Of a DNA stretch of 64,000 nt, positions 22,078 to 45,659 are shown one piece after another; the first letter of the stretch is position 1; the number at the start of each line of letters is the position of its first letter. Made by a program: the position numbers and the translations under genes. This DNA is from a virus. The stretch covers positions 20,814-84,813 of IMG/VR virus record IMGVR_UViG_3300000318_000002; one strand, given 5' to 3'. The notes below the pieces were generated by a model, which was not told where the DNA came from, made no database searches, and worked only from the letters and a program-made list of their open reading frames with translations.

Positions 22078-22415
22078 AATTTGAAAAGGCACTAGAATTG
22101 GTTAATGTACAATTAAAAAAATCATATCCGTTCTTTAAAGGTGTTGATGAACAAGATGGAAAAGCAATGATTATGATTTGGAATATGTTTGCACTTGTAA
22201 AAAAAAATAAGCTTGACGATTTAGTTTTAATAGCTAAGAACGGAACAGATATAATTTCTATCCCAATTCCCGATGAATTGGAAGACGAAAAAACGTTCAA
22301 TGAGGCTGATGAACAAATAAATGAGTCATCCAAACCGAAGAAAGCAACAAAGAAAGATGCAAAAGGCGCAAAGCCCGATGTCATCTCCGCAACCTCAACA
22401 GAACCAAATAGCTGA
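22074..22415 (+). CDS. Hypothetical protein before the portal (113 aa)
   Basis: MKFEKALELVNVQLKKSYPF then helical/strand core, and a disordered Lys/Ala/Ser tail (SKPKKATKKDAKGAKPD). ATGA overlap with the beta-helix gene; the tail overlaps the portal start. Possibly a head-assembly accessory protein. Confidence 0.6.
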   Translation: MKFEKALELVNVQLKKSYPFFKGVDEQDGKAMIMIWNMFALVKKNKLDDLVLIAKNGTDIISIPIPDELEDEKTFNEADEQINESSKPKKATKKDAKGAKPDVISATSTEPNS

Positions 22416-24030
22416 TACCTACAATAGAGCTTATAAAGAAGGAAGAGCCGCTGTCAAAGAACTTGAAAAGCGGCTCTCTCTTTCTGTTCCTTCCGGCGTA
22501 AAATACGATCAACTCAATAATATCTCTTATAACAATGTTGTTTATCAACGTGATAAAATCCCAGATAGAATCCTTAAAATGGTTGAGCGTCGGAATCCGG
22601 TTGTTGCCGCTGGAATAACGCTCCGGATACAGCAAGCTCTTGAATATTCTAACATTTCCCATGATAAAGATGTTCCCGGTTGGGAATTTGTCCCGCGTGA
22701 TGAGAAACAACAAATGACGCCCAAAATGGAAAAGCAGAAACTTTTCCTTGAATACCTTCTAGAAAAAGGTCATTCTTCTGATTATACGTCATTTGATGGT
22801 GTTGATGAACCTTCTTATTTCCGTGAAAGAATTACTCAATATGTTCGTGATCGAATAACTATTGATAAAGTATGCTGGGAGATTGAACGCGATCTCAAGG
22901 GACGTGCTATAGCACTATGGACTCTCGACGGTGCTACAGTGTTCCCTGTACTTCCTGGCGGGTTTTGGGGTTCGTGTTCGATGATTACCGCTGGGATGGG
23001 AGGGGGTTATACAGAACTTGCCGAAAAGATCCGTCAAGCCCGTCTGACAAATGTTCCTCCAGTCGAAAAAATAGCATTTGTTCAAGAACTTCTTTATGGC
23101 ATGAGTGGCGGCGGGATTGCTGCGGCTTTCACAAATAAAGACATGATTTATGATATTTCAAATGACCTTAATGATGTTCGTTATTATAAACAAGGGTTTT
23201 CAGTTATTGAAAAAGCGAATATTGCCATAACTGCTTTTATCAATTCCCTTTCCTATAATTCAAACGGTCTTTCCCGTGGTGCTATTCCAAAAGTAGCAAT
23301 TTCTATGGGCAAGGAAAGCGGTTACACCGAAGAACAACTTGAAGATCTTCAAGACGAATGGATGGCAAATTTTGAAGGTGTAGATTCTCAATGGAATATT
23401 CCGCTTCTTAATGGGGATGCAAAAGTTCTTAATCTTTTGCCGTCAAATCGTGATATGGAATATCAATCGTACCTTGAATTTACAGGTGCATTAACTTTTG
23501 CCTGTATGGGTATAGATCCTACTGAATGCGGGTTACGATTTAATCAAGCAACTCAGATTATGTCAGAGAACAGCGATGGGAAACAAAAGTTTTCTAAGAA
23601 TCGCGGTCTTGCCGAAATGCTGACCTCTTTTGCGTATACGACAAATAGATTCCTTGAACTCAGTGGATATGATTTTGCAAAAGACTGGAATTTCCGTTTT
23701 AACGGATTATCTTTTGAGGATAAAGGTTTTGAGGCTGATCTTAGAGAAAAGGCAATAAGAACAGATACTACAATTAATGAAAGTCGCATAAAACGCGGTG
23801 ACAAACCGATCAAATATGGTGATATTATTGCGAACCCTCAATTTATTCAATATATAATGAATAAAGAACAACAAGAACAGCAAGGTCAAGATCAAAGTGA
23901 TAATCAAAATGATTTTGGTAGTGATGATACCGAAGATGATGATCTTGATTCAACCGTTGATGATGCAATGAATGAAGCTTTAGGAAGTGATTCATCTCAA
24001 AAAATGGAAAAAGCGTTTAGATTAATATAA
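22378..24030 (+). CDS. Portal protein
   Basis: About 550 residues. Typical portal features: helical stem-like region, VIEKANIAITAFINS, MANFEGVDSQWNIPLLNGDA, and an acidic, Gln-rich disordered C-terminus. It forms the dodecameric DNA gate at one capsid vertex and binds the terminase. The start is uncertain: 22378 (MSSPQPQQNQIADTYNRAYK) has AAAGG upstream; 22357 and 22321 are in-frame alternatives. The last residues read KMEKAFRLI, carrying the M-x-K-A motif discussed in the findings. Confidence 0.85.
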   Translation: MSSPQPQQNQIADTYNRAYKEGRAAVKELEKRLSLSVPSGVKYDQLNNISYNNVVYQRDKIPDRILKMVERRNPVVAAGITLRIQQALEYSNISHDKDVPGWEFVPRDEKQQMTPKMEKQKLFLEYLLEKGHSSDYTSFDGVDEPSYFRERITQYVRDRITIDKVCWEIERDLKGRAIALWTLDGATVFPVLPGGFWGSCSMITAGMGGGYTELAEKIRQARLTNVPPVEKIAFVQELLYGMSGGGIAAAFTNKDMIYDISNDLNDVRYYKQGFSVIEKANIAITAFINSLSYNSNGLSRGAIPKVAISMGKESGYTEEQLEDLQDEWMANFEGVDSQWNIPLLNGDAKVLNLLPSNRDMEYQSYLEFTGALTFACMGIDPTECGLRFNQATQIMSENSDGKQKFSKNRGLAEMLTSFAYTTNRFLELSGYDFAKDWNFRFNGLSFEDKGFEADLREKAIRTDTTINESRIKRGDKPIKYGDIIANPQFIQYIMNKEQQEQQGQDQSDNQNDFGSDDTEDDDLDSTVDDAMNEALGSDSSQKMEKAFRLI

Positions 24031-24045
24031 CAGGAGTTTTTTAAA

Positions 24046-25143
24046 ATGTCAGTGAATAAAAAAAGTTTAATGTATTGCCAAATCTCTCATAAAAGTACGA
24101 CATATGAAGTATATGTTGGAGTTACTGATACTGACGAACTTAATGATATACTTCAGGATTGGGCAATCAGCAATACCACTATTGCGGAAGCCCTTGATTT
24201 ACCTGCGGATCTTGTAATATGCCAAGCAATTACTGATTATCTTACAACCAATGATTCCGATGGTTATGTTTATATAAAAAGTGCCGTTTCTGCTTATATG
24301 GATAAAGTAAAGAATGCAGGGCTTACCGGAACTTTCCCAACACTTCCAACCGCCCTTGTTGCAGAGAAATATGTCCTTCCAGCGACAACTGCATTTGTTT
24401 TCTCTGCCGCTTCTTTTGCTGGAGTGTTTGGAGAATATACAATCCCTACAGCGTCTTTTGAGCTTGCGACTGGAGTTAACATAATCGGTATTGATTATAA
24501 TGCGGGAACTCCTCAATATCAGATTTATTCCGATATCTCTTCAGTTAATTATTCCAGCATAATCCCTGTTTGTAAAGTTCTGTATTTTAATAGCAATATT
24601 TATTCTATTCCTCTCGGTGTTTCCGGAGACGGACTTGCTGAAAAAATTATTGCCGATCAACGGAAACAACATCAGTATGTTTTGATAGATGAATTTACAC
24701 TTACTCATGATTCAAACCTTTATACTCAAATAGGGGCATTGTCCGTAACTCACGGGCTTGATACTATTGCTCCGCTTGCGTTTGATTCGTCTTTATCAAA
24801 TAATGATCTTTATCTTTATTACAAAAATTCAAGTTCCGAATGGCAGACAAGTAAGGTTACCCAACTTAATAATCTTCAGTATCAAGGTGCGGGTCTTGTT
24901 GCTCTTGCCGATGGCGAATATGTGGCAAATTATCTTTATCGTTTGGTTGATGGAACGAATAAACTTGCTTTTACAGTGCTTTCTGGTAAATTTACATCTC
25001 TTCAGGATGCAATTAACAGCGCGCCAGTTTCTATCCCTGATACGATAAAAAATTCATCAGTAATTGTCGGACGTATTATATTTGCAAAAGGATCAACAAC
25101 GGGAACTGTACAAAAAGTGCAGAAAATCGTTTTTGGTATATAA
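24046..25143 (+). CDS. Putative fibre-like virion protein (365 aa)
   Basis: MSVNKKSLMYCQISHKSTTY, followed by Ser/Thr/Ala/Tyr-rich beta sequence. The C-terminal block (YLYRLVDGTNKLAFTVLSGK, LQDAINSAPVSIPD, VGRIIFAKG) resembles receptor-binding or fibre tips of phages. It sits between portal and MuF, where head fibres or decoration proteins are found, not tail fibres. AGGAG precedes the ATG. Family name not certain. Confidence 0.6.
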   Translation: MSVNKKSLMYCQISHKSTTYEVYVGVTDTDELNDILQDWAISNTTIAEALDLPADLVICQAITDYLTTNDSDGYVYIKSAVSAYMDKVKNAGLTGTFPTLPTALVAEKYVLPATTAFVFSAASFAGVFGEYTIPTASFELATGVNIIGIDYNAGTPQYQIYSDISSVNYSSIIPVCKVLYFNSNIYSIPLGVSGDGLAEKIIADQRKQHQYVLIDEFTLTHDSNLYTQIGALSVTHGLDTIAPLAFDSSLSNNDLYLYYKNSSSEWQTSKVTQLNNLQYQGAGLVALADGEYVANYLYRLVDGTNKLAFTVLSGKFTSLQDAINSAPVSIPDTIKNSSVIVGRIIFAKGSTTGTVQKVQKIVFGI

Positions 25144-25168
25144 TTTCAAACAAAAGGAATAAAATTTT

Positions 25169-25507: not shown

Positions 25508-25512
25508 TTTAA

Positions 25513-25719: not shown

Positions 25720-25732
25720 GAGTTTTATAACA

Positions 25733-26920: not shown

Positions 26921-26929
26921 TATGGCAAT

Positions 26930-28342
26930 ATGAAAAAAACCGTTAAACAGGTTGAGCAAAAAGAATATCAAGAAGTTAAATACATACGTGAGCTGACCGA
27001 ATATTGGTCGGCTTACGTTTCTTCGGTTATCAATGAAATATTTGTTGGTATAGGAACAACTCTTGGTATTTCTGAAAACGAAGCATATAAACTAATAAAA
27101 AATGATCCGTCAAAACTTGAGAAAGCTGGATTCTTTAAAAGCATATTTGAAAAGTTTAAAAATATTTTTAAGTATCGTGTTAAAAAATTCAGACCAAAGG
27201 TAAAACTATTTAATAAAGATGGATCAGTTATTGATGAAAAAAGATGGCAAAAAGTTCAGGACGATATCCATGATTTTTGGGTAAAACAAACTCAAAAAAA
27301 TTCAGAGGATATGACTCTAAAAGGTTTTATTCTTGGCAAGAAAACAAGTAAATATAGAGAAGAAAAGAAGAAGAACTTTGAGAATAAATCTTTTGAACAG
27401 ATAGATGAAGAAGAATATAAGAATAAAATGCCGTCGCGGATTGAAGAAATATATGCAGATTTAAAACCGTCTGAACGCCGGACTATGAATAAAGCCTTGT
27501 CACGTGTAGCAATGCACGTAGCAGACGTTGAAAATAAAGTAAAAAGCTCAATACGAAAGAATGTAGTGCAAGGTCTTAATGCCGGTAAAAGCCCAACGCA
27601 AATAGCGTCTGACCTTTACTGGAATGTTCAGGGAGGATCTAAACAATCAGCAGACGTATTGAGACGCGATTGGAATAGGATTGCTGAAACAGAGGTTCAA
27701 AGCATTTATGAAGCCGGTATTCTTGCGCCTCATGAAGAAGAGGCAAGGGAATCAATAGAAAATCCAGAAAAAGCACAATATTTTGTTTATACAGGCGGAA
27801 CTTGTAAGTGGTGTAAATCCCAACAAGGGACTATTGTCAGGTTACTTCCGGAAGACGTTATAAGAGATAAAAATAATGACAGTCTTTCGTCAATGGGTAT
27901 TGATGATTATTTTACAGATATCGCTGTTTGGATTGGTAAAAATAATGTCGGACGGTATTCGTATAAAGATCCTTACTGGCAAATCTGTACACCTGCTCAT
28001 CCGCACGGGGTAGCTACGTTACATCCTATAGATTTTGAAAAAGAATTTTACAATGAAAATACGGGACGAGTAGAAGCCAAATTGACGCAGTATTCAGGAA
28101 TACCAAAGAAAAAAGATTTTGAGTTTACACCGGAAGAAATAGAAAATAGAAAGCCTCATTTTGTCGGCAATAACAGAGTGATGTTTAATGATAATTTGTA
28201 TGAAAGAGTATCTCCTGATGAATATAAATCATCTTTAAAACGCTGGAATGATAACCCTAATCTTCCGATTCCCGTATCGGCAGGGACTACAAGTGATAGA
28301 CAAATTTTTGAAGCTGCGGAGAAAAATAGAAATGATTCTTGA
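26930..28342 (+). CDS. MuF-like head morphogenesis protein
   Basis: 470 residues. The MuF/SPP1 gp7-type region is seen at LRRDWNRIAETEVQSIYEAG (about 240-260), followed by a Cys pair in GGTCKWCKSQQG (about 288-299), a conserved feature of this group. The basic N-terminal half is helical. MuF proteins associate with the portal and may be injected or support head assembly. Overlaps the next gene by 11 bases. Confidence 0.8.
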   Translation: MKKTVKQVEQKEYQEVKYIRELTEYWSAYVSSVINEIFVGIGTTLGISENEAYKLIKNDPSKLEKAGFFKSIFEKFKNIFKYRVKKFRPKVKLFNKDGSVIDEKRWQKVQDDIHDFWVKQTQKNSEDMTLKGFILGKKTSKYREEKKKNFENKSFEQIDEEEYKNKMPSRIEEIYADLKPSERRTMNKALSRVAMHVADVENKVKSSIRKNVVQGLNAGKSPTQIASDLYWNVQGGSKQSADVLRRDWNRIAETEVQSIYEAGILAPHEEEARESIENPEKAQYFVYTGGTCKWCKSQQGTIVRLLPEDVIRDKNNDSLSSMGIDDYFTDIAVWIGKNNVGRYSYKDPYWQICTPAHPHGVATLHPIDFEKEFYNENTGRVEAKLTQYSGIPKKKDFEFTPEEIENRKPHFVGNNRVMFNDNLYERVSPDEYKSSLKRWNDNPNLPIPVSAGTTSDRQIFEAAEKNRNDS

Positions 28343-29394: not shown

Positions 29395-29421
29395 TTTAAT
29401 GTCCTTTTAAAAAAATTATAT

Positions 29422-29667: not shown

Positions 29668-29688
29668 AATTTACTCCTTTATTTAATA

Positions 29689-30507: not shown

Positions 30508-30517
30508 TATGATATTG

Positions 30518-30805: not shown

Positions 30806-30815
30806 GATTATCCCC

Positions 30816-31034: not shown

Positions 31035-31060
31035 AATATTATCCTTTTTTATTAAAATGC

Positions 31061-31132
31061 AGACCTGGCTGGACTTGAACCAGCGAGTGACGGCTTCAAA
31101 AGCCGTTGCCTTACCGACTTGGCGACAGGTCT
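31061..31132 (-). tRNA. tRNA-Gln (anticodon TTG)
   Basis: 72 nt. Acceptor stem AGACCTG / CAGGTCT, D stem GCC / GGC, anticodon arm ACGGC-TTTTGAA-GCCGT, variable loop CACTC, T arm GCTGG-TTCAAGT-CCAGC. The anticodon TTG reads CAA. The discriminator is G and a full CCA is not encoded. CAA/CAG Gln codons are frequent in the phage, so it may supplement the host pool. The stop of the next gene overlaps the first base. Confidence 0.93.
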
Positions 31133-31506: not shown

Positions 31507-31524
31507 AATATTATATTTCTCCAA

Positions 31525-32831: not shown

Positions 32832-35800
32832 ATGAACAAGTCTCAAATAAAAGCACTTATCAGGAAAAATATTAAGATAGATAATCTTGAAAAATCAAAA
32901 GAAATGTTAAAAAATCAATATAATATATCCTTTGGGAGATATGAACCAGAAGAAATCAGGCAATCTCTTATAAAGGGACTACCGGTTCTCGTACAGGATC
33001 ATTTTATTATAGGAATGGACGAAGCAAAACAAAACACTTTTGAGGATACCGACGGAAAAGTTTTTAGTATAGATGTCCCTGTAAAAGCAATTATTGTAAA
33101 TGATGAAATAGATCAGGACGATATTGATGCCTCAACAGATAATTTTGCAATCATCGGACGCAATGAATGGAAAACGCCGATTAATGAATTTGATAATATT
33201 ATTGCACCGCTTAGAAATGGGAAACCTTTTCTTCCGAAAACTCCTGTTATTTTTAATTTTCTTAATCTTACAGATGAAATAAAAAAAACAGATATTGTTT
33301 CTAAAACTGTTGGAGCGCAAATTTATCTTTATGATAAAGACGGATACATCGATAATGCTTTTCACGAGATAGGTCATATCTTTTGGAGAACCCGATTGAC
33401 CTATGACGAGCAAGAATTATTCCAGGAAATCTTTGATAGTGGAAAACTTTCGAGTGCCATTTATGAATACGAATGGGAAAAGAAATCAGCAGAAGAAATT
33501 TTCTGTACAGTTTATAAATGGTATTTAAAATCAATTCTGATAAATACATCTTTCCGTAAAATTCTTTCTTTTGAAGAACCAGACGGATATGATCTTATGG
33601 TTTCAATTGTTCAGCGTATTGGAGAAGACAATATCAGGTCGGATGTTTGGGAAAGTGTAGAAGACAAGGTTAGAGAATACCTAAATCCTCGATATGATAC
33701 AACGACAAATAGTTTTATCCGTAAACGTGGTGATTTTGATGCTATCAAAGATGTCGAAATACCTTCAGAACTTTTGGAAGATATTTCTTCAGTTCAAGAT
33801 GGAATAAAATATGTTAATCTATTTAAAGGTAAAAATCCTGTTCCCGTAAAAGAATATTCTATTGATTTTGTAAGGGCAACCGAAGATTTTACTAAAAAAC
33901 TTGAGAAGTCGCGTCCGATTATCCCCGCTGGGAAAGAAGTTTTGTACATGGATATGGACGGAGTTATCGCAGATATAGGAACAGGATATAAAGAGTTGTC
34001 CGGACGTAATATCTTTAAAGATGATACTTTTACTGTTCGACAGACGATAGGTTTGATCCCTCATTTTTGGCGTAAATTGCCCGTCCTTCCCAAAGGGAAA
34101 GAGCTTTACGATATGCTCAAAGATTATTACGCTATTATATTTCTGACAACTCCGATGGATTCTATAGATTCTTGTAAGATGGATAAAATAGCATGGGCGA
34201 AGCAGTATTTCCCTGAAGTTAAAACAATTCTATTCAGTGATAAAAAAGAAGAATACGCAGCGTCAAATAAAAGCGTATTGATAGATGACTATGGTAAAAA
34301 CGTAAAAGCATTTAATGATGCCGGAGGAAGTGCTATAAATTTCAAAGAAAAAAATACCGAAATAGTATCGCAGATAAAAGAAATATTTAATCCTAAAGAT
34401 GAAATTGCTGAAATAAAAGAGCAATTAAAATCTATGCAAGTTGATCCTTCCCCGTTCGAAGCACAAAAGAAAACGGGAAATTATAAAAAGGGTAAAATAT
34501 TATTCAAAGGGCTTTCTCTTATAATCGAAAATCCGAAAGGATCTATCCGTTTTGGTCGCGGATCTGACGGTAAGCGTTGGATGAATATTATGAAGGCACA
34601 CTACGGATATATTGATACAAAGCCAGGAGAAGAAGGTGCTGATGGCGATAAAATAGATTTCTTTCTTGGTGAAAATTTATCAACAAATAAAGTGTTTGCC
34701 ATAAATCAGGTGTGTCCGGAAACGGGGATGTTTGACGAAATCAAGTTGGTTATGGGTTGTAATACCGCCGAAGAAGCAGAAAAGCTATATCGATCATGTT
34801 ATTCTAAAAACTGGACCGGATTTGGTTCAATAGTCCAGACGAATACAAAGGGCATACGAGAATACATCCAAAACGGGTATAGATATGAACCTTTTGGGGA
34901 TAATTTTATAGAGCAAGAACCGCTACAAAAAGCAACATTTTTAGAAATGCTAAAAGCCAGAATTACAAAATATGTAAGACGTGAACCAGACGGTAAAGGC
35001 GGATGGAAGTATTTTTATAAAAACAATATAAAGAATAATACAATCCAAAATCAGGAAGAACATAAAGATAGAAAAATATCTCAAACCGAAACTCCTGAAT
35101 TTAAAAAGTGGTTTGGGGATTCAAAAGTTGTAGATAAAAATGGTAAACCCTTAATCGTTTATCACGGAACAACGGCTTCAAATATTAAAGAATTTAAACC
35201 TGAGAGATTACACGGACGAAATGGAATTTATTTTACAGATAAACAGGAAGAAGCCCAATTATATGGGTCAAATATAATAAAAGTCTATGTAAAAATGGAA
35301 AATCCCAAAATTTTTGATGCTGAAGGTAAATCTTTCAATGATATTTTTGACAAAATTGAGCCACTATTAAGATTCTTAGGCAAGTTTGAGAATGATGGTA
35401 TAATTATAAAAAATGTATATGATTCCCCTTCCGGGAAGAAGGAGGGGCGAAAATCTACAACATTTATTGTAGATGATGCTTCACAAATAAAATCAGCAAC
35501 AAATAATAATGGTAATTTTGATCCGAATGAATCTGATATGACAAAAGCACACGATTCTTTTGATATTTCAGATAAAGAAATTGTACAATCCTTGGATCAA
35601 ATAAAAAAAGAAATAACCGTCAACCATGATTTTGATATTCCTTATTTATGCGGATACAGCAAAGACGCTAAAACAATTTACATCGATAGACATCTTCCAA
35701 AGATGAAAACACGTGGACATTTTGATTCTGATGATGCTCTGATAATGCACGAAGCTACTGAAAAGGCAATGGAGAAAACATATCATCTGGAATATGCCAA

Positions 35801-36008
35801 AGCTCACCAGATCGCATTACGTGCCGAAAAAGCATATGTAGAATCTCAAGGTATTTCATGGAAAGGTTATAATTCCTTTATGCAAAAGTACATTAAGAAA
35901 GCTGGAGATGAGAGACTTACGGAAACTCCTAAAAATCTGGATTTGCAACCATATCGTAATTGTCATGATTATTCCGAGTTGACAAAAATTTCAAAGGTGC
36001 AAAAGTAA
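32832..36008 (+). CDS. Polyvalent protein 1: metallopeptidase, HAD nucleotidase, InPase-like, ART-like domains
   Basis: 1058 residues. In order: an N-terminal domain with FHEIGH (178-182) and a likely zinc-ligand Glu near 222; a HAD-type 5'-nucleotidase-like domain (370-520, MDMDGV with Asp374/376, LIDD 483-486); an InPase-like domain (546-680, GNYKKGKILFKGL, YGYIDTKPGEEGADGDKIDF, MFDEIKLVMG); an ARITKYVRR linker (709-733); an ADP-ribosyltransferase-like domain (757-895, KKWFGDSKVVDKNGKPLIVY-HGT); a last domain with HEATE (973-977). This matches the polyvalent proteins described for phages and conjugative elements, thought to enter the host with DNA. It ends at the next gene. Confidence 0.8.
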   Translation: MNKSQIKALIRKNIKIDNLEKSKEMLKNQYNISFGRYEPEEIRQSLIKGLPVLVQDHFIIGMDEAKQNTFEDTDGKVFSIDVPVKAIIVNDEIDQDDIDASTDNFAIIGRNEWKTPINEFDNIIAPLRNGKPFLPKTPVIFNFLNLTDEIKKTDIVSKTVGAQIYLYDKDGYIDNAFHEIGHIFWRTRLTYDEQELFQEIFDSGKLSSAIYEYEWEKKSAEEIFCTVYKWYLKSILINTSFRKILSFEEPDGYDLMVSIVQRIGEDNIRSDVWESVEDKVREYLNPRYDTTTNSFIRKRGDFDAIKDVEIPSELLEDISSVQDGIKYVNLFKGKNPVPVKEYSIDFVRATEDFTKKLEKSRPIIPAGKEVLYMDMDGVIADIGTGYKELSGRNIFKDDTFTVRQTIGLIPHFWRKLPVLPKGKELYDMLKDYYAIIFLTTPMDSIDSCKMDKIAWAKQYFPEVKTILFSDKKEEYAASNKSVLIDDYGKNVKAFNDAGGSAINFKEKNTEIVSQIKEIFNPKDEIAEIKEQLKSMQVDPSPFEAQKKTGNYKKGKILFKGLSLIIENPKGSIRFGRGSDGKRWMNIMKAHYGYIDTKPGEEGADGDKIDFFLGENLSTNKVFAINQVCPETGMFDEIKLVMGCNTAEEAEKLYRSCYSKNWTGFGSIVQTNTKGIREYIQNGYRYEPFGDNFIEQEPLQKATFLEMLKARITKYVRREPDGKGGWKYFYKNNIKNNTIQNQEEHKDRKISQTETPEFKKWFGDSKVVDKNGKPLIVYHGTTASNIKEFKPERLHGRNGIYFTDKQEEAQLYGSNIIKVYVKMENPKIFDAEGKSFNDIFDKIEPLLRFLGKFENDGIIIKNVYDSPSGKKEGRKSTTFIVDDASQIKSATNNNGNFDPNESDMTKAHDSFDISDKEIVQSLDQIKKEITVNHDFDIPYLCGYSKDAKTIYIDRHLPKMKTRGHFDSDDALIMHEATEKAMEKTYHLEYAKAHQIALRAEKAYVESQGISWKGYNSFMQKYIKKAGDERLTETPKNLDLQPYRNCHDYSELTKISKVQK

Positions 36009-36032: not shown

Positions 36033-39000
36033 ATGAAAAACCCTCTCTTTTCCTCTTTCTCTCCTCAACAATTAAGATTTGCTATAGAGTATGAAATGCG
36101 ATTCCGAGATGATCCTAAAATCGCGTCAGATATCGCAATCGGGCGTTTAACGGAAAACCCAAAATATTATGATCAGTTTGCAAAGATGGAGAAAGCTCGT
36201 ATTACAAAATATGTAAGACGTGAACCCGACGGTAAAGGCGGGTGGAAATATTTTTATAAAAATAATGTAAAAAAAGAATCAAAGGAAATAGTTGAAGGTA
36301 CTTCTGAATGGGCGGAAAGAATGTTTATTAATAAAGAAATACCAGAGGGATGGTACGTTCATGGAAGAAGTAGAGGACATAATGAGGATTTGACTACAGG
36401 AGCAGTGACCCAATGTACTAAAAGATGGGATGTTGCAGAACATTATGGTCGGTCAGGTTCGATGTTCCTTATTCATCCAGATAAAAATGCAAAAGTATTA
36501 GATCTTTCATCATCAAATACTAAAGATATGGATATGGTTGTAAATCTTTTTACTAATCAATATGTAAAAGATATAATGCCAGATGAAATACAGGAATTAT
36601 TTATTCCTTTAGATATGAAAAATGAATTAACTATAGAAGAAAAAAAAGAACATATTGAAAAAGTAGTAAGAAAAGAATTTTCTCCTAAAGATATCGTGAA
36701 TTCGGCTGAAGCTTATGACAGTTTAGAGTTAATGGATTATTTTGATAGATTAAATATAGCAGATTTTGTAATAACTCCTGATGGTGCGGTGATAACTGGA
36801 GATTTGGATAAAATAAAAAAAGTAAAAATCCCGAATCATCAGCTGTTAGAGAAAGCCAATCAATTATCTATCGGAACGAAAATAGAATCAGAACATAAAG
36901 AGACAGTTGATTTTATCCGTTCTTATGTTAAAAAAAATGGGAAGATGCCTCTTGATAAGGAAATATATAAACATATTTCGATGAATCATACTGAAAAAGA
37001 AATGAAAGATTATTATACTCGATTGATTCAAATGGAGAAACAAGCCAAAAAAGATAAAAAGCGTCCTCAGATTGAAATAGATGTTATAAAATTTCTTATA
37101 GATAATCCAAACCCTCCTGATTCAAAAATACATGCTTTTGCAGAGAGCAAAAGTCTTGATCCTTCAAAACTTGAAACAGTAGTCTATCGGATAGCAACCG
37201 AAAGAGCAAAGATGAGTACAGATATGTTTAAAGCCCGTATCGTCAAATATATCCGAAAAGAACGAATGAAAGACGGTAAGTTCAAATATTATTACGCAGA
37301 CGGTACGCACTCGACAACCGAAAAAGAAAAACCCTTTAATGTCGTAGAAGCTTTTAAAAATTTCTTTGGTCTATCTGATGAGAAGATTGCAAAAGAAAAG
37401 ATTAAAAAAGACTATTACGAACATAAAATTTCAGCAAAATATAATTTATCTTTACTCGGTTGGGCAGATCATCTTTCAGAATATTTTATTCATAAAGATA
37501 AATGGGACAGTAAGTTTTCAAATAAAACTCCCGAAACAAAAGCGGATGATGCCAAAAAGGATACAAATGCCGAAAAGAAGGCTTCTACACCTTCTGAAAA
37601 GCCTAAGTTTAATACCAACGCAATGAAAGAAATTTATGATCTTTATAATAAAAAGGCTGAAGAACCTATAAAAGAAACCGCCAAAGAGTCAGAGGCTATT
37701 GTCGAGCCTGTTAAAGAAACATCGGAACAAAAAGCAAAAGATATTCAAATATCAACTGCGATAAATACTGTAACTCCTGAAAACAGAAATGAAAAAGAAA
37801 ATGAAATCCTTAATATCCCTGAACTAACAGAACCAGAAAAAGAAAATATAATAGAGCCAACGGTTGAATTTGTTCCTGATTATGAAGTAGTCTCTATCCC
37901 TGGATTAATAGTTGAAGGTAAAAATAACAGTCAACATTTATTAAAAAGTTATTTAAAAGTAAAGCCGAAAGATATTTTACTACAAAATGAAAAAACTATT
38001 CTTACCAAAGAAAAACCATCATATATTCCTGAAGTTGATGAAAAATTTCTTAAAGGAGCAGGATTTGTTATTCCAACATACAAACTTGAAACTGACAAAT
38101 ATTTAATTCAGACTAATGCAAAACGGAAAGTATGGACAGAAGATAAAAAATGGCATATCGCAGGTGAAGATACTTATATTATAGTGAATAGAGATGTTCT
38201 TGCAGCAACTTATGATTATTTTATCAAGAAAGCCAAGATGTTAAAGAAAGAAGAAACAAAAAAAAGACAAGAAAAATATCCTGATTATAAAGTTACAGCA
38301 GAAAGAATTACAGTTTTAACCGATAAGAAAATGTCGTATGATCAACAACGAGTATTTTCTTATTTCATTCGGAATGTAACGGGTTTTTCTGGCGGTGGTT
38401 CAAAGTTCATGTGGGAAAAATATAAAGAAATAAGAGAAGATATTGCTCAAAAAACATCGGATATGGAAATACAGCTTGAAGATTATTATAATGCTCATGC
38501 GAAAGGAAGAGAAACTTCATATGGAGATAAAGGAACAAATGATTCTCTTCTAAGCACTTTGGGAGTAAAAGTAAAAAGACAAAATGGCGCGGAGATTACA
38601 TCAAAAGAAATAACCGAAATAAAAGATGCTGTTGATGACGTATTCTCTGTTTTTGGGAATAGATCTTCTATGGCTAAAAATTTTGGGTTGAAAATATCTC
38701 ATGCTGGGGATAAGAATATGCACGCTCGGAACGCAGCAGGGATATTTATACCCTCTCTTAAGGTAATCGGCGTAACAACTCAATATGGAAATGGAACGAC
38801 TGGATTTGTTCTTGCTCATGAATGGTCTCATTTTATGGATTTTTATGTTGGTGAAAAAAATGACAGACATTATATTTCCGATAATCCGAACCATGTTGCA
38901 GGCGAAATAGCAGATACGTTTAGAAAAAACATGAAAAAACAACAAAAATCTGCATACTATAATCGTACTTGTGAATGTTTCGCAAGAGCATTGGAGCAAT

Positions 39001-39236
39001 ATTGGGCTATTAAAACAAACAGTACAGATATACTTCAAAGATGGGATAGTTTAGGGACACATCCCGAAGAAAATATTTTTAAAGAAAAGGTAATGCCACT
39101 CATTGATAGATTTTTATCTGAAAATGACCAATTACTCAAAGCTTTTTTCAACGATAATTTCAATAAAAATAAAAATATCTTGATTAAATCTTTTGATCGT
39201 GTAAAAGGTGTATTTGTTTACAGGAGAATGAAATAA
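36033..39236 (+). CDS. Polyvalent protein 2: ART-like and C-terminal metallopeptidase domains
   Basis: 1067 residues. The N-terminus (SPQQLRFAIEYEMRFRDDPK ... LTENPKYYDQ) is DUF5661-like. An ARITKYVRR segment (55-80) is followed by an ADP-ribosyltransferase-like domain (about 105-290, EGWYVHGRSRGHN, FLIHPDKNAKVLDLSS). A second linker ARIVKYIRK lies at 401-423, then a charged linker. The C-terminal domain has HEWSH (929-933) and a likely third ligand Glu in TCECFARALEQY (about 981), as in large polyvalent-protein metallopeptidases. It lies 24 bases after polyvalent protein 1. Confidence 0.78.
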   Translation: MKNPLFSSFSPQQLRFAIEYEMRFRDDPKIASDIAIGRLTENPKYYDQFAKMEKARITKYVRREPDGKGGWKYFYKNNVKKESKEIVEGTSEWAERMFINKEIPEGWYVHGRSRGHNEDLTTGAVTQCTKRWDVAEHYGRSGSMFLIHPDKNAKVLDLSSSNTKDMDMVVNLFTNQYVKDIMPDEIQELFIPLDMKNELTIEEKKEHIEKVVRKEFSPKDIVNSAEAYDSLELMDYFDRLNIADFVITPDGAVITGDLDKIKKVKIPNHQLLEKANQLSIGTKIESEHKETVDFIRSYVKKNGKMPLDKEIYKHISMNHTEKEMKDYYTRLIQMEKQAKKDKKRPQIEIDVIKFLIDNPNPPDSKIHAFAESKSLDPSKLETVVYRIATERAKMSTDMFKARIVKYIRKERMKDGKFKYYYADGTHSTTEKEKPFNVVEAFKNFFGLSDEKIAKEKIKKDYYEHKISAKYNLSLLGWADHLSEYFIHKDKWDSKFSNKTPETKADDAKKDTNAEKKASTPSEKPKFNTNAMKEIYDLYNKKAEEPIKETAKESEAIVEPVKETSEQKAKDIQISTAINTVTPENRNEKENEILNIPELTEPEKENIIEPTVEFVPDYEVVSIPGLIVEGKNNSQHLLKSYLKVKPKDILLQNEKTILTKEKPSYIPEVDEKFLKGAGFVIPTYKLETDKYLIQTNAKRKVWTEDKKWHIAGEDTYIIVNRDVLAATYDYFIKKAKMLKKEETKKRQEKYPDYKVTAERITVLTDKKMSYDQQRVFSYFIRNVTGFSGGGSKFMWEKYKEIREDIAQKTSDMEIQLEDYYNAHAKGRETSYGDKGTNDSLLSTLGVKVKRQNGAEITSKEITEIKDAVDDVFSVFGNRSSMAKNFGLKISHAGDKNMHARNAAGIFIPSLKVIGVTTQYGNGTTGFVLAHEWSHFMDFYVGEKNDRHYISDNPNHVAGEIADTFRKNMKKQQKSAYYNRTCECFARALEQYWAIKTNSTDILQRWDSLGTHPEENIFKEKVMPLIDRFLSENDQLLKAFFNDNFNKNKNILIKSFDRVKGVFVYRRMK

Positions 39237-42200
39237 ATGAAAAAATCCCTACTGAAAATTAAAGATAAATTTTTCATTAATATGGAAAAAGCTATTCCCG
39301 AATCAACATATGAACATTCTGATAAACTTGGAGAAGGGGCTAAAAAAAGAAAAAAACTACATTTAAATAAAGATAAATTTGACGCAGTTATGCATGAATT
39401 TAAACGTGGGACATTACGTTCTGGGTCAGGTGAACATGTAAAAGATCATAATCAAGCGGTTGCGATAGCAATGCATGAAAGTGGAATGGCGAAAGCAGAA
39501 TCTCCCGAAGTCCAGGCGAAGATTAAGAAAGTTATGGACGAATTTAAAGCTGGAAAACTAAAATCAAGTAGCGGACAAATAGTAACTGATCGGAATCAGG
39601 CTTTGGCTATCGCATATTCATATTTTAAGAAGGCAGATAACTCGATGACAAAAGCAAATGAATGTTCTTTTCTTGATGATGTCTATGCGGCAAAAGAAAA
39701 TACCCTTATACCTTCAGATATAGATGTTTATCAACTCGCTATGGGAATACAAGTAGAGTTCGGGGAACATACAAATGATATCCAGATTGCAATGCAAATA
39801 GCAATGGATCATCTTGAGGAAAATCCGGTATATTATACTAAATTGCAAGAATCAGGGCTTGTAGATGAAGTGTTGTTACATACCTATGAAATATCAAATA
39901 TTCTCCGTGGAGCATTACCATTTAATGCAGGGTTAGAGCCTATGGAGAAGGCAAGGATTACGAAATATGTAAGACGAGTTCCGAAGCCATCGGGAAAAGG
40001 TTATATTTATTTCTATAATAAAGCCGAATACGAACATTATAAAAAAACAGGAGAACTTCCAACAAAGCAAAAGTCTATTTTCTCTAAAATTATATCATTC
40101 TTTGGTCTTGGATCTGATAAAGAAGCCAAAGAAAAAATTGATAAAATGTATGAAAGCCATAAGACAGTTTTGACAGGTGTTGGGAAAGATGCTTTCACCG
40201 ATCATGTCATAGAATATATAACAAACAAAGAAAAATGGGACAAAAAACTTTCAGCACCAAAAGCAGAGCGCAAAGAGTCAAAAGAAGGTGCTAAAAAAGA
40301 ACCTACAGAAAAGAAAAAAGTAGTTAAGAAAGAAGGAAAGAAATTTAATATTTCTGTAATGCGTGTTGTTGCGGGGATAGTTAATGAGAAGGAAAATAAA
40401 AAACAAAATGCAGGATCAAAAGATAAAGACAACTTTGAGACTATGCCGAAAGATGAAAAGAAATGGTATGAAAATATATTAGAAAAAATAGAAAATATTA
40501 CCAATGAAGATGATAAAAGTGGATTAAAGGAATGGATATCTGATTGGACTAATACTAAAGGATCTGTTCGTAAATCGTTGGCAAAAGATATTGAAGATAA
40601 ATTGTCTAATATTCAAGGCAAAGAAGAAAAAAATAAATTAAAAGAAAATTTGTCTAACTCACGATTGAAAAAATTTGAAGATTCAGGGAAAGAAGCTTTT
40701 GAAACCACCAAGAAAGATTGGGTAGAGATGCAACGAGAAGAGCGGCGAATTATGGGGCAAAATGAAGGTAATGGGAATCCGAATGCTCCTTATTCTGATT
40801 ACGAAAACTATCATAATGATTCTGTAAGACGTGCTATTGAAGAAGGTAAAACGGTTTCTCCTGAAGTGTTGAAGGATTATCCTGAATTAAAAAAAGACAA
40901 TAGCATAATCAAAGAAATTGATAAAGTCAAAGATGAGATAAAAAAACAAATAAATACAGAAGAAGATATCGAAGATGAAGAAACTAAACTTCAAAAAGAA
41001 TCAGATGAACATTTGAAACAAAAACCCGAAAAGGTAGAAAGACCTTCCGTTCTTGATAAGGGCGGAGATAATTTCTGGAATGGAAAAATTTATGGTAATG
41101 AAAAATATGGTTTCAATATATATTTAAACAATGAAAAGGAAGTTATTCCTAAAAGTGTAGCCCAAAAATTAGAGCAATATGTTGAATATCGTCAAAAATT
41201 AAAGTCATGGAAAGAAAAACAAGAAACTATTGATAATAAACAACTTAAATTTAAAAATAAAAATGAACAACTACAACAAATAATTGATAAGCCGATAGAA
41301 CATATTAAGAAAATAGCTGAAGATAACTTTTTAACACAAGTTGATGGGATGTTTGTTAGTACTGATTATACGGGTGCAAAAACAATTATTGTTGATGATG
41401 TAAAAGAACAAAAACTTATAGATCGTATGAAAGAATGGACTCCTAAAGATTTTAAAGAAATGTTAAAGGAGAGAATAGGAACAATTACAAAAGAAAGCAG
41501 TAAAAAAGAAAATGAAGTTAATACTGTATTAAATAAAACTATAAATGATAGTATTGATAACGAGTTTGTAGAACATCTTAAAAATATTGTTAAAAATCGT
41601 TTAATCGAATTGAAAGCAGAATCGCTCAAACAAAATAAAGATAAAGAGGAACAAGATAAAAAGAATAAACTTATACAAGAAAAAATTAATGAAGCTGAAA
41701 AGAAATATATCCCAGAAGGCTATTGGAATGGTAAAGTTTATGGACGTCATGGTAACTACAATATTTATGTAGATAATAAAAAAAGAGCTATAAACGATAA
41801 TGTTGCTTTGGAGCTTATGGGGGGCGAAAAAAAATCAATGTCAAAAGCCGAAGAACTTGAAGATATGTTAAAAGCCAAAAAAGCAATCACCGGGGAAGTA
41901 CATACCTATAAAAACGGCAAGAAATATCGTAAAGAAGGCGATAAATGGGTACTCGTAACAAGTGGTAAGAACAAAGTCAAAGGGAAACCGGAAGAGAAAA
42001 ATAAAAAGAAAAAATCTAAAACTGGAGGAAAAAATAAAATATCTAAAGAAGATCGGAGTTTAATAAAAAATACTCTGAAACGAGTAGCTTCGGTAATTGC
42101 AGAAGCTCTTGCTGGTAAAAATCCCAATGCTCAAGCCGCACAGGGGATCGAACATACAGGAGAAGATTTAAAATCAAGTAGTCATAAAGGCTTAACAGAA

Positions 42201-42242
42201 AAACAAGTTGACAAAAATAATAATAATAACAATAAAAAATAG
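39237..42242 (+). CDS. Polyvalent protein 3: DUF6496-like repeats and coiled coil
   Basis: 1001 residues. Two DUF6496-like repeats (about 48-85 VMHEFKRGTLRSGSGEHV and 98-133 VMDEFKAGKLKSSSGQIV), a DUF5661-like segment (about 160-205), the ARITKYVRR linker (239-265), then long charged helices. Two copies of a beta motif follow (FWNGKIYGNEKYGFNIYL, YWNGKVYGRHGNYNIYVD), then a Lys-rich tail. No enzyme motif is obvious. Six M-x-K-A sites occur. Its ATG follows the previous stop directly, so all three large genes are one unit. Confidence 0.72.
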   Translation: MKKSLLKIKDKFFINMEKAIPESTYEHSDKLGEGAKKRKKLHLNKDKFDAVMHEFKRGTLRSGSGEHVKDHNQAVAIAMHESGMAKAESPEVQAKIKKVMDEFKAGKLKSSSGQIVTDRNQALAIAYSYFKKADNSMTKANECSFLDDVYAAKENTLIPSDIDVYQLAMGIQVEFGEHTNDIQIAMQIAMDHLEENPVYYTKLQESGLVDEVLLHTYEISNILRGALPFNAGLEPMEKARITKYVRRVPKPSGKGYIYFYNKAEYEHYKKTGELPTKQKSIFSKIISFFGLGSDKEAKEKIDKMYESHKTVLTGVGKDAFTDHVIEYITNKEKWDKKLSAPKAERKESKEGAKKEPTEKKKVVKKEGKKFNISVMRVVAGIVNEKENKKQNAGSKDKDNFETMPKDEKKWYENILEKIENITNEDDKSGLKEWISDWTNTKGSVRKSLAKDIEDKLSNIQGKEEKNKLKENLSNSRLKKFEDSGKEAFETTKKDWVEMQREERRIMGQNEGNGNPNAPYSDYENYHNDSVRRAIEEGKTVSPEVLKDYPELKKDNSIIKEIDKVKDEIKKQINTEEDIEDEETKLQKESDEHLKQKPEKVERPSVLDKGGDNFWNGKIYGNEKYGFNIYLNNEKEVIPKSVAQKLEQYVEYRQKLKSWKEKQETIDNKQLKFKNKNEQLQQIIDKPIEHIKKIAEDNFLTQVDGMFVSTDYTGAKTIIVDDVKEQKLIDRMKEWTPKDFKEMLKERIGTITKESSKKENEVNTVLNKTINDSIDNEFVEHLKNIVKNRLIELKAESLKQNKDKEEQDKKNKLIQEKINEAEKKYIPEGYWNGKVYGRHGNYNIYVDNKKRAINDNVALELMGGEKKSMSKAEELEDMLKAKKAITGEVHTYKNGKKYRKEGDKWVLVTSGKNKVKGKPEEKNKKKKSKTGGKNKISKEDRSLIKNTLKRVASVIAEALAGKNPNAQAAQGIEHTGEDLKSSSHKGLTEKQVDKNNNNNNKK

Positions 42243-42269
42243 GACAAGGATAAAAAGGAATAATCCAAA

Positions 42270-42452: not shown

Positions 42453-42476
42453 CATTCTTCTAAATGAGTTTTTATT
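42449..42476 (+). promoter_or_regulatory. Promoter before the prohead protease
   Basis: TTGACA (42449-42454), 16-bp spacer, TTTATT (42471-42476), with a ribosome site AAAGGA near 42501 that serves a 25-codon leader frame at 42512 overlapping the protease start. Confidence 0.5.
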
Positions 42477-42533
42477 GAAACTGCTATTGAAAGTCCGTTA
42501 AAGGAATAAGCATGAATACTAACGAAGGTATAA

Positions 42534-43406
42534 ATGTTATTCCGCGTAAACGGGTTTTACATCTCGAATCTACAGAAAGCAAAAGACGATAAACTCGTTA
42601 CTGTTGATATAATCGCAAATCATCTTACCGAAGACCAAGATAATGAAGTCGTTCTCAAAGAAGCCTTTGACGATGATACGGTCAAAGAATTTCTCGATAT
42701 CGGCGTTATCGAATTTTGGCATGAATCAAAAAACGAACTTCTTACCAAAAAAGAAAAAAATGATAATCTTATAGGTCGCCCCGTAGCTTTTCGTTGGGAA
42801 AATGGGCTTCCGGTTGTTACTGCGACACTTTCAAAAACTCATCCTATCGTACAGTCAATGATGCCTCATCTTGAATCGCAAAATCCTGTATACGCCGCTT
42901 CAATAGGCGGTTCTAAAGTCGTACTCGAAGCAAAAGATAATTCGGGTGAAATACATAAAATAATCCCCAAAATACGTTGGGATCATCTTGCTATAGCTCC
43001 TCAAAATATGGTCGTGAACCGTGAACCTGGAATAAATGTCAAGATGCTTGAAAAAGCAAAATCTATATATAATTTTAGCAATTTTACTACTCTTGCAAAA
43101 GCTCTTGAAGCCCCCGGTTCGGTAGACGCTCTTTATTCAACTCCCGGCGGTGCTATTACCAAACAATCTCTTGAAAAAAGTATTTCCGTTCAAGGTTTTT
43201 CGGAATCCGAAGCGGATCTTTTACTTGATACTATACTTAAATATGCAAACGGAGAAATGCCGACAGATAAAGTTGGTTATTTTGCTCTGTTTCCAAACAA
43301 TGAAGAATTTGCCGATAAGTCGTATCGGCTGTTCGATAACCATTTTAAAAAAGGAGAATTCGTAAATGAAGTTTTCAAAAGAAGAACTTCTTGCCAAAGG
43401 TATTGA
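42534..43406 (+). CDS. Prohead maturation protease
   Basis: 290 residues. DDDTVKEFLDIGVIEFWHES, LIGRPVAFRWENGLPVVTAT and VQSMMPHLESQNPVYAASIG match phage prohead protease/XkdF-like sequences; Ser in AASIGG and His in FWHES are plausible catalytic residues (inference). The C-terminal part (about 185-215) contains ALEAPGSVDALYSTPGG, which is repeated in the capsid N-terminus. It cleaves scaffold and capsid during maturation. The start at 42534 has GAAGG upstream. Confidence 0.72.
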   Translation: MLFRVNGFYISNLQKAKDDKLVTVDIIANHLTEDQDNEVVLKEAFDDDTVKEFLDIGVIEFWHESKNELLTKKEKNDNLIGRPVAFRWENGLPVVTATLSKTHPIVQSMMPHLESQNPVYAASIGGSKVVLEAKDNSGEIHKIIPKIRWDHLAIAPQNMVVNREPGINVKMLEKAKSIYNFSNFTTLAKALEAPGSVDALYSTPGGAITKQSLEKSISVQGFSESEADLLLDTILKYANGEMPTDKVGYFALFPNNEEFADKSYRLFDNHFKKGEFVNEVFKRRTSCQRY

Positions 43407-44154
43407 TCCGATTGTCGCTGATGAAATAATCGCGTCATATGACCGTACCGATGACGGAACTCCCCTGTCTAAGCTTGAAAAAGCTTTGAAGCCGAAAAAG
43501 AAAAATGACGAACAGTCGCTTTTTAAGGCTGAAAAAGGGGAAAAAGAAGGGGACGCAGAAGATGATGCAGAACCAGATGATGATGAAGATGACAAAGAAA
43601 AGTTTATGAAAAAGAACAAAAAGGCAATGAAAAAAGCCGAAGAAGAAGACGAAGATGAGGAAGACGAAAAAGAAATGAAAAAAGCATTTGATTCGATTGA
43701 TAGAACTGCTCCTGGTGCTGTTGTAGAAATGGAAGATCTTGCTCCGTCTCTTTCTGCTATCCATAAAAGCTTTTCTTCACTACTTAAAGCGGTAAATGAC
43801 CTTTCAAATCGTGTTGATACTATTGTTTCTCAAAATGAAGAATCTTATAGTCTCATGCACAAAGCCGCAGAACTTCAGGTCGAAACTTCAAAAGGTCTTT
43901 CAAGTGTTCTGTCTATTCCGGCTGGACGTAAAGGCGTAACTGCTTCCGTCAATATGGAAAAAGCTCAGGGCATAAATACTGATCTTGCTAACCGCGCACT
44001 TGTTTATCAGGTACTCGCTAAAGCAGTTAAGCTCAAAGATCCTATCGGCGGTGCTATTGCAGAGCGTTATGAAAGTGCTGGTCACGATATTCGCGCTCTC
44101 AGTAAAGATGACCGCGCAGGGATCGCAAAACTTATTCAGGAGAATAATAAATAA
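43366..44154 (+). CDS. Scaffold-like protein
   Basis: 262 residues: an N-terminal charged region, a very acidic Asp/Glu stretch (about 60-105), a helical coiled region (about 125-190) and a C-terminal domain ending KDDRAGIAKLIQENNK. Composition and position between protease and capsid are those of a scaffold. Three M-x-K-A sites are present (MKKA twice, MEKA once). Overlaps the protease by 41 bases and the capsid start by one. Confidence 0.7.
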   Translation: MKFSKEELLAKGIDPIVADEIIASYDRTDDGTPLSKLEKALKPKKKNDEQSLFKAEKGEKEGDAEDDAEPDDDEDDKEKFMKKNKKAMKKAEEEDEDEEDEKEMKKAFDSIDRTAPGAVVEMEDLAPSLSAIHKSFSSLLKAVNDLSNRVDTIVSQNEESYSLMHKAAELQVETSKGLSSVLSIPAGRKGVTASVNMEKAQGINTDLANRALVYQVLAKAVKLKDPIGGAIAERYESAGHDIRALSKDDRAGIAKLIQENNK

Positions 44155-45659
44155 TGGACGAAGAACTTTTCCCACTCACCGACAGCTCGATGGGATCTGA
44201 ACAGATGGGACAGTTTCAGGAGCTTCTGAAAGCTCTTGCAGCTCCTGGATCTGTTGACGATCTCTACGGTACGCCTGGCGGTGCTATTACTCAACAGTCA
44301 CTCGAACTGATGCTTGCAAATCTTACCTTGAAACCGACGGATATGACTTTCTGGCAGGATATTGTTAAGATCAAAGCATTTTCAACCGTTGAAGAATACA
44401 ATCAGCTTATTGGTTCTGGTATTAGCGATGGCGGATTCGTGGATGCAATGGAAAATCCGGAATTTTCCGATCCTGATATCCTCAAACAGATAGCAATTGT
44501 AAAATTCATGTCTGAAGGTTGGAAGGTTGGTGATGTACAGGAGCAAACCCGTACAACTGTAGCTTCCCGTGCGCTTTCTCAGAAAGCGGCGATGACTCGT
44601 CTCCTCCGTAACGTAAACCGTGCTCTGTATTCTGGAAATTCACTCTGGATTCCGGAATCAATTGACGGTCTTTCCGCTACTATCTCCGGATCAAGCTCAA
44701 GTCAGGTATTTGACCTTCGTGGCGCGTCTCTGACTATGGCGGCGCTGAATCTTGCCGGTCAACTTATTACCGAAGGCAATGGGAATGTTGAAAATTCAAA
44801 TCTGTACCTTTCCCCTGCTGGAGTACAGAATCTTTCAACGATCATAGAATCTACCGGAGATGCAACAAATAACCGTAAATTTGTGCCAATGGGTGATGGG
44901 AACATTACTATCGGCGGTAAAATATCAGACATTATGACCAATTATGGGAAGATAAAAACTCGTATGGACAAAGTTCTTGGTCTTGAATATGAAGCAAACG
45001 GCGTTCCTAAGATTTTCAATAACAAGACTAAAACTTGGTACGAAGGTCCTACTTCTGAATTTGCTCCCTCTGCTCCTACTATTGCTCTTACGAATCAGGG
45101 AACTATTGCAAATTCTCAGTATTCCGCAACAGGGACTCGTCCTTCTGGTGTAAAAGCTCGCTATCGTGTTTCTGCTCGTAATCGTTATGGTCGTTCAATT
45201 GCTTGCGCTCTTGTTGAGTCTACTTCGGTTGTAGCTTCCGGAGGTGGTATTGATATCGCTATTACTCCTGTTTCTACAGATACTGGGAAACGTACGCCTT
45301 CTTGTTTCGTGATCTATGGCGAACAGGTATATAATTCTGGAGAATTCCGTTATCTCGATACGATTGCGGTTGATACTACCAATCCATATGCAGTTGTTAC
45401 CTATCATGAAAAGAATTCATACATCCCCGGTACTGCTCGCATGTTCATTGTTGACCAGACTTCTGCCGGAGAAGATCGTTCCCTTGCTTTTGCGCAACTT
45501 GCGCCAATTCATAATACCGATCTTTCCAAAGAAAACCGTTCAACTCGTGGTCTCATCAATCTTTATGGAACGATGAAATACTATAAACCTCAGGTTCTTG
45601 TTGAAATCCGTAACATCGCTGTTACTCAGGCAAACATTAATCTGTACAACAATAACTAA
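44154..45659 (+). CDS. Major capsid protein with Ig-like insertion
   Basis: 501 residues. The N-terminal arm contains ALAAPGSVDDLYGTPGGA, then capsid-type sequence (TFWQDIVKIKAFSTVEEYNQ, QIAIVKFMSEGWKVGDVQEQ, LNLAGQLITEGNG, NLYLSPAGVQ). About residues 305-415 form a separate Ser/Thr/Tyr-rich Ig/fibronectin-like domain (SGVKARYRVSARNRYGRS). The C-terminus returns to the capsid core (APIHNTDLSKENRS). The HK97 fold is inferred from order and neighbours. AGGAG precedes the ATG. Confidence 0.82.
   Translation: MDEELFPLTDSSMGSEQMGQFQELLKALAAPGSVDDLYGTPGGAITQQSLELMLANLTLKPTDMTFWQDIVKIKAFSTVEEYNQLIGSGISDGGFVDAMENPEFSDPDILKQIAIVKFMSEGWKVGDVQEQTRTTVASRALSQKAAMTRLLRNVNRALYSGNSLWIPESIDGLSATISGSSSSQVFDLRGASLTMAALNLAGQLITEGNGNVENSNLYLSPAGVQNLSTIIESTGDATNNRKFVPMGDGNITIGGKISDIMTNYGKIKTRMDKVLGLEYEANGVPKIFNNKTKTWYEGPTSEFAPSAPTIALTNQGTIANSQYSATGTRPSGVKARYRVSARNRYGRSIACALVESTSVVASGGGIDIAITPVSTDTGKRTPSCFVIYGEQVYNSGEFRYLDTIAVDTTNPYAVVTYHEKNSYIPGTARMFIVDQTSAGEDRSLAFAQLAPIHNTDLSKENRSTRGLINLYGTMKYYKPQVLVEIRNIAVTQANINLYNNN

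Follow-up and report, generated by a model that had tools for sequence, protein, structure and literature searches.

A candidate prohead-protease signal shared by head proteins and polyvalent proteins of a phage with an SPO1-type capsid protein

The head gene region and its recurrent tetrapeptide

The DNA considered here is a window of 64,000 nucleotides, which corresponds to positions 20814-84813 in a virus record of 84.8 kb (IMG/VR record IMGVR_UViG_3300000318_000002), and all positions below are those of the window unless another locus is named. Its head gene region encodes a portal protein, three large polyvalent proteins whose genes start at 32832, 36033 and 39237 (proteins 1 to 3), a prohead protease, a scaffold and a major capsid protein. 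The order protease-scaffold-capsid is that of SPO1, and the portal gene lies about 18 kb upstream. Protein 1 combines InPase, ART-PolyVal and NT5C domains in one chain inside this head gene cluster, which identifies it as a polyvalent protein. All of these products carry the tetrapeptide [LM]xK↓A (the arrow marks the putative scissile bond, with Leu or Met at P3, Lys at P1 and Ala at P1'). The motif is probably, at roughly 80%, a prohead-protease signal, by which the protease would cut the head proteins and would also cut co-packaged polyvalent precursors into separate effectors delivered with the DNA. The evidence for this reading is enrichment, conservation, homology to annotated or solved cleavage positions, and covariation with the capsid site.

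An initial annotation had described 14 MxKA tetrapeptides in five proteins as candidate prohead-protease sites. All of those sites are present, and the numbers given for proteins 1, 2 and 3 (two, two and six) agree with our recount, but the total is 16, with four rather than three in the scaffold and two rather than one in the portal. The claims that MxKA is missing from sheath, tape measure and TerL (15302), where the recount gave 0, and that it is more frequent than expected at random both held. When each protein was shuffled separately, the expected numbers were 0.20 for protein 3 and 0.10 for the scaffold (p<0.0005 for each), 0.12 for protein 1 (p=0.0045), 0.20 for protein 2 (p=0.015) and 0.09 for the portal (p=0.005). 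The annotation's reading as a prohead-protease motif is supported, but the motif was drawn too narrowly; the probable cleavage signal is the broader [LM]xK↓A, and its strongest copies, LxKA in the capsid protein and protease, had been missed.

In this broader form, the motif occurs 12 times in the protease, scaffold and capsid N-terminus (0.7 expected), 13 times in the three polyvalent proteins (1.7 expected) and twice in the portal (0.3 expected), and there is no enrichment in all other proteins of the window (7 vs 5.4 expected). Leu or Met occupies P3 in 13 of 32 KA dipeptides of the cargo, as the polyvalent proteins are called below (p=4e-7), in 11 of 12 in the scaffold and protease (p=2e-10) and in 7 of 56 elsewhere (p=0.3). 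The enrichment is not produced by richness in Lys and Ala, since Leu and Met at P3 are concentrated among the Lys-Ala pairs of cargo, scaffold and protease. A MuF-like minor head protein (26930-28342) has two [LM]xKA sites, LEK↓AGFF and MNK↓ALSR (p~0.01), and may be a further substrate.

Lysine at P1 in the capsid family

Full-length sequence homology places the capsid protein in the SPO1/Herelle type (382 phage records). Its N-terminus reads ...ELLK↓ALAAPGSVDDLYGTPGGAITQQSLE, with the predicted maturation cut falling behind a Lys in LLK↓ALAAPGSV, and [LI]xKA occupies the maturation position in about 60 related capsid proteins. The deposited mature peptide of Listeria phage A511 begins at residue 24 (EDALK↓SFTTGYG), at the bond homologous to the window site. 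Likewise, the solved Staphylococcus phage capsid chain 9row_B begins SFQTGYG (K↓SFQTGYG), 24 residues into a 463-residue protein and directly behind VVK. External data thus establish Lys at P1 of the capsid site in this capsid family, and the window site, judging from sequence, is the homologue of the bond that yields the mature N-terminus in A511 and the Staphylococcus phage.

The specificity extends through the family. In 48 distinct pairs of protease and scaffold, each drawn from the stretch upstream of a related capsid gene, there are 783 copies of hydrophobic-x-K-[ASG] (148.5 expected). Lys alone is so enriched; in the same pairs all other residues at P1 stay close to their expected numbers or under them, Glu among them (99 vs 141 expected). 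The window clade prefers Leu or Met at P3 and Ala at P1'. A site matrix built from relatives' core proteins, and trained without any window sequence, gives high ranks within the window proteome to the sites of cargo, portal, protease and scaffold, along with a few matches that are likely due to chance.

Protease, scaffold and portal

The protease is predicted to lose an N-terminal leader by a cut behind residue 15, where Lys is followed by Ala or Ser in every protease of the clade. Its C-terminal half repeats the N-terminal segment of the capsid protein, site included (LAK↓ALEAPGSV). Such a capsid-like segment is also found inside the proteases of SPO1, A511 and Fi4S2 (Staphylococcus). In SPO1, Fi4S2 and L056, the capsid profile (phrog_752) finds a match in the C-terminal half of the protease. 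The segment may serve as a substrate mimic, in targeting or as a scaffold-like domain. His63 of the protease is invariant in 16 sequences; the candidate Ser motifs are AASIGG and GFSVEG, and their mutual alignment is uncertain. Searches with a structure model of the protease, for which the predicted local distance difference test (pLDDT) is 59, gave herpes assemblins and T4 gp21 as the best matches in the PDB (E 0.02-0.09) and E values down to 9e-7 in a viral library, with prohead proteases among the matches. A profile search of solved structures gave no match for the protease.

The scaffold has eight [LM]xKA sites (0.43 expected), which are largely kept in relatives. Its gene shares 41 bases with the protease gene in different frames (43366-43406). 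The C-terminal portal site has counterparts in 8 of 13 other portals, where K↓A or K↓S is followed by a short, mostly hydrophobic tail at the C-terminus (MEK↓AIRLI, MQK↓AIRD.., MKK↓SLLRT.., VEK↓SLSRLI..). Site and tail are absent from the other five, SPO1, Fi4S2 and LE1 among them. The hydrophobic tail behind the window portal site (23980-24030) is possibly a cleavable assembly anchor.

Sites and modules in the polyvalent proteins

The cargo sites lie before and behind recognizable domains (Table 1), and several are matched in relatives. The site ahead of NT5C in protein 1 has the counterparts LEK↓A in L017, MSK↓A in L100 and FQK↓S in LE1, and the aligned site behind the metallopeptidase-like domain of protein 2 is LLK↓A or MLK↓A, and LLK↓S in Leptospira phage LinZ_10. 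Many sites are followed by one of two small modules. All 18 copies of module I (KY[IV]RR..GKGYxYFY) start 3-10 residues behind a site, as do 11% of random positions, and all 10 copies of module II ([IV]G[TE]..TYxDGxxYRKxGxWxxV) stand behind a site at a distance that is always 4 (random 11%). The copies are not independent, because the modules are homologous; the informative part of the association is that P3 and P1' vary and the modules do not. A third small module, of the K.V..NKKGK.QTVYVK or VTRKGKTFMQDIWV type, is seen close behind K↓A or K↓S cargo sites.

The N-terminal leaders of the cargo (39237-39290; L009:5690-5750 and 6807-6890; L013:4-60) resemble each other (..K.xDG.YI.L.KA) and, faintly, the protease leader. 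They score 7-11 against a protease-leader matrix whose background reaches about 10, so that a leader common to protease and cargo, which might act as a capsid targeting signal, is only suggestive at the level of sequence. The structure model of the N-terminus of protein 3 (pLDDT 52) is too poor for judging site exposure.

Covariation with the capsid site

In Leptospira phage LE1, whose capsid and cargo are of the kind seen in the window, the capsid site reads NFMK↓S. FxK[SG] occurs 8 times in the LE1 protease, scaffold and capsid N-terminus (0.4 expected) and 9 times in its polyvalent proteins (2.9 expected, p=0.007); neither set has an excess of [LM]xKA, and the other LE1 proteins have an excess of neither motif. 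Phe stands at P3 of 4 of 4 module-preceding sites in LE1 vs 0 of 21 in the window clade (Fisher p~8e-5; hand count). The core proteins of LinZ_10 use [LMIV]xK[SG], and its aligned C-terminal cargo site is LLK↓S where the window has LLK↓A. The motif is not a general property of polyvalent proteins, a possibility ruled out by InPase-containing proteins from five phages outside the matches of the capsid family, in which [LM]xKA shows no excess (2 vs 2.2 expected).

A linker-profile scan of viral contigs returned three loci only, one of them on a new contig, and scans of genome contigs found no relatives in cellular genomes. The Bacteroides DAC19 region has a related capsid gene and no conspicuous polyvalent cargo.

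Table 1. Features of the head gene region, with predicted cleavage bonds marked by arrows
Feature	Position	Strand	Basis or comparison
Portal protein	22321..24030	+	Pfam Phage_portal 1.6e-13
Portal C-terminal site MEK↓A, ahead of tail AFRLI	24004..24015	+	comparison with 13 other portals
Polyvalent protein 1: HEIGH motif, NT5C, InPase, ART	32832..36008	+	Pfam; HEIGH by motif
Site LEK↓S, residue 359, just ahead of NT5C	33900..33911	+	relatives' counterparts
Site LQK↓A, residue 700, behind InPase	34923..34934	+	
Site MLK↓A, residue 708, then module I	34947..34958	+	
Module I copy RITKYVRREPDGKGGWKYFY	34956..35030	+	profile match
Site MTK↓A, residue 905, behind ART	35538..35549	+	
Polyvalent protein 2: DUF5661, module I twice, C-terminal metallopeptidase-like domain (HEWSH)	36033..39236	+	
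Site MEK↓A, residue 54, DUF5661 end	36186..36197	+	
Module I copy	36195..36278	+	profile match
Site LEK↓A, residue 274	36846..36857	+	counterpart MQK↓ASQLEIGT in L009
Site MFK↓A, residue 400, then module I	37224..37235	+	
Module I copy	37233..37316	+	profile match
Site LLK↓A, residue 1036, behind metallopeptidase domain	39132..39143	+	alignment with relatives
Polyvalent protein 3: leader, two DUF6496, DUF5661, module I, module II near C-terminus	39237..42242	+	
Site MEK↓A, residue 18, N-terminal leader end	39282..39293	+	
Site MAK↓A, residue 86, behind first DUF6496	39486..39497	+	
Site MTK↓A, residue 139, ahead of DUF5661	39645..39656	+	
Site MEK↓A, residue 238, then module I	39942..39953	+	
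Module I copy	39951..40034	+	profile match
Site MSK↓A, residue 870	41838..41849	+	
Site MLK↓A, residue 879, then module II	41865..41876	+	
Module II copy KAITGEVHTYKNGKKYRKEGDKWVLV	41874..41966	+	
Prohead protease, S78/assemblin-like, 290 aa	42534..43406	+	His63 invariant; gene order as SPO1
Protease site LQK↓A, residue 15, ends N-terminal leader MLFRVNGFYISNLQK	42570..42581	+	clade alignment
Protease site LEK↓A, residue 174	43047..43058	+	LxKA kept across clade
Capsid N-terminal segment copied inside protease, LAK↓ALEAPGSVDALYSTPGGAITKQSLE	43092..43175	+	matches capsid 44223-44306
Scaffold, eight [LM]xKA sites after residues 39, 54, 90, 106, 141, 166, 199, 219	43366..44154	+	shuffles, relatives
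Major capsid protein, SPO1/Herelle type, 501 aa	44154..45659	+	phrog_752 1.3e-59; PDB matches 9vel, 5lii, 9row
Capsid maturation site LLK↓A, after residue 26	44223..44234	+	homologous to A511 mature-peptide start and chain 9row_B
Third-module loci	L009:597-5693; L100:2720-3487; L031:1745-4318; L073:1644-5045; L026:1587-5186; L088:3-4646		

Two further features lie near the region. A tRNA-Gln (TTG) gene is located on the minus strand at 31059-31132, in the interval that separates the cargo genes from the portal region. The record bases ahead of the window (L007:13706-15511) encode a protein of 601 aa in which a leucine-rich repeat recurs many times almost unchanged (AITSLPDNMSVGG.L.LR).

Weighing the prohead-protease reading

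The attribution of these sites to a prohead protease, as in the initial annotation, is upheld by the homologous capsid cut position, the family-wide enrichment, the covariation in LE1 and the lack of an excess in unrelated InPase proteins. The procapsid entry, cutting and injection of the cargo that the annotation had also envisaged are steps that we, too, infer. Several observations weigh against the reading. The sites do lie between domains qualitatively, as had been claimed, but avoidance of Pfam intervals is by itself weak, with 12 of 13 cargo sites outside an interval and one at an edge where about 18% of residues are covered (p~0.08), and some weaker copies of the motif fall inside domains, such as IMK↓A at residue 588 in InPase. 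The window protease has no Pfam match, Peptidase_S78 included, so it was assigned by orthology and gene order; its orthologues in SPO1, Fi4S2 and L056 do match Peptidase_S78. Its structure model is poor, given the pLDDT above. Covariation at P1' is not strict, as L026 and L032 combine K↓S-type cores with [LM]xKA in large upstream open reading frames and one module site of L011 is of the K↓S type. Clade sequences share ancestry, and counts across them are not independent events. Finally, the cuts in the window phage and its clade are known as predictions from sequence.

Other explanations were weighed as well. Cargo and scaffold are rich in Lys, Glu and Ala, and the motif might have arisen from composition or chance, but this is ruled out by the shuffles, the conditional P3 test and the controls with other proteins, and its probability is negligible. 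It is very unlikely that MxKA marks old start codons left by gene fusion, or internal translation starts, rather than cleavage sites. Polyvalent proteins do grow by fusion and M-x-K is a frequent N-terminus, yet the same positions are LxKA, IxKA, FxKS or FxKG in relatives, and eight scaffold sites cannot mean eight fused genes. Internal starts in particular are ruled out by Shine-Dalgarno matches, which precede 1 of 16 sites vs 34 of 48 gene starts.

The polyvalent proteins could process themselves through their zincin-like metallopeptidase domains, a route proposed by Iyer et al. in 2017 (PMC5512222), with the K-A sites serving that reaction; HEIGH in protein 1 and HEWSH in protein 2 would fit. 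This seems quite unlikely. Self-processing fails to explain the sites because protein 3 and the cargo of several relatives carry them without HExxH; moreover, capsid, scaffold, protease and portal bear the same motif, and the cargo motif shifts along with the capsid site in LE1. It is also unlikely that the sites are genuine in the head proteins and, in the cargo, are an uncut part of a duplicated linker repeat. The module I copies are homologous, many have ARITKY behind the site, and cleavage of the cargo is a prediction. The sites also precede non-homologous segments, however, those at the portal and metallopeptidase tails fall outside the linker repeat, and P3 and P1' track the capsid site of each phage while the modules stay homologous.

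A model for processing and delivery of the cargo

If the prohead-protease reading is correct, the protease would enter the procapsid with its leader and capsid-like segment and then become active; at [LM]xK↓A it would cut itself, the capsid protein, the scaffold and the tail of the portal. The three polyvalent precursors, made from genes just upstream of the protease gene, would be co-packaged in the same compartment. As the same signal stands before and after cargo domains, Lys-Ala cuts would free separate effectors, several of which would have module I or II, both small and basic, at their start, and the fragments would then be delivered with the DNA to the next bacterium. Packaging and injection are plausible given the precedents of T4 internal proteins, P1 DarA and DarB (PMC9024508), SPN3US ejection proteins (PMC10052503) and polyvalent proteins (PMC5512222). 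Gp20 of Cellulophaga phage phi13:1 (L129:5986-8052) is a fusion of InPase with a Clp-type protease, and its annotation lists it as a virion component identified by tandem mass spectrometry.

The wider proposal, for which the chances appear evenly balanced, is that injected effectors are made as polyproteins, which the prohead protease processes. The cargo would follow a cassette grammar of site, small beta-hairpin-like module (I, II or others) and effector domain, in which effectors could be gained, fused or lost and yet stay packageable and be released separately. As LE1 illustrates, capsid and cargo would co-evolve in specificity. The small module may serve as a tag for capsid retention, DNA riding or ejection.

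For the packaging and host entry of huge polyvalent proteins, the published proposal is metallopeptidase self-processing. A prohead-protease code at domain borders would, if true, let one gene supply many small effectors, make the exact fragment ends predictable and, in dark phage genomes, help to spot uncharacterized effector domains. Since phages differ in this code (LxK↓A, FxK↓S), the key to the cargo of each would be given by its own capsid gene. The prediction is open to test in the cultured phage LE1; tryptic mass spectrometry is confounded at K↓A bonds because trypsin also cleaves after Lys.

Comparison with known systems

T4 gp21, with the internal proteins and Alt, offers a close likeness, as a prohead protease there trims leaders off co-packaged, injected proteins at a short motif, and the window cargo has a possible N-terminal leader that ends at a site. 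The T4 protease cleaves after Glu (L-x-E). T4 thus combines Glu at P1 with leader trimming, whereas the window has Lys at P1 and internal sites in multi-domain precursors. Proteases of the phiKZ/SPN3US type (gp175, gp245) resemble the proposed system in using one motif for broad processing of head and ejection proteins. They differ in having Glu at P1 and in that the cuts mostly take off propeptides instead of separating effector domains; the SPN3US motif is AXE, and 13 of 14 mapped cuts remove N-terminal propeptides (PMC10052503).

Among polyvalent proteins (Iyer et al. 2017; P1 DarA/DarB), InPase, ART, NT5C and metallopeptidase-like domains likewise occur in one chain. P1 DarA is reported to be processed and DarB to have an N-terminal capsid signal (PMC9024508). 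Iyer et al. proposed metallopeptidase self-processing, whereas in the window a prohead-protease motif marks the borders. In a partial literature search, no publication was found that joins polyvalent proteins to procapsid cleavage.

The Herelleviridae (SPO1, A511, Staphylococcus 812/K) share with the window a homologous capsid protein, the protease-scaffold-capsid order, Lys at P1 and a capsid-like copy in the protease, but the SPO1 head region that was examined is without polyvalent cargo genes, and P1' in protease and scaffold is mainly Ser. In Leptospira phages LE1 and LinZ_10, the cargo has related domains and both small modules (I and II); the difference from the window is in the site itself, which is F-x-K↓S/G in LE1 and [LMIV]-x-K↓S/G in LinZ_10.

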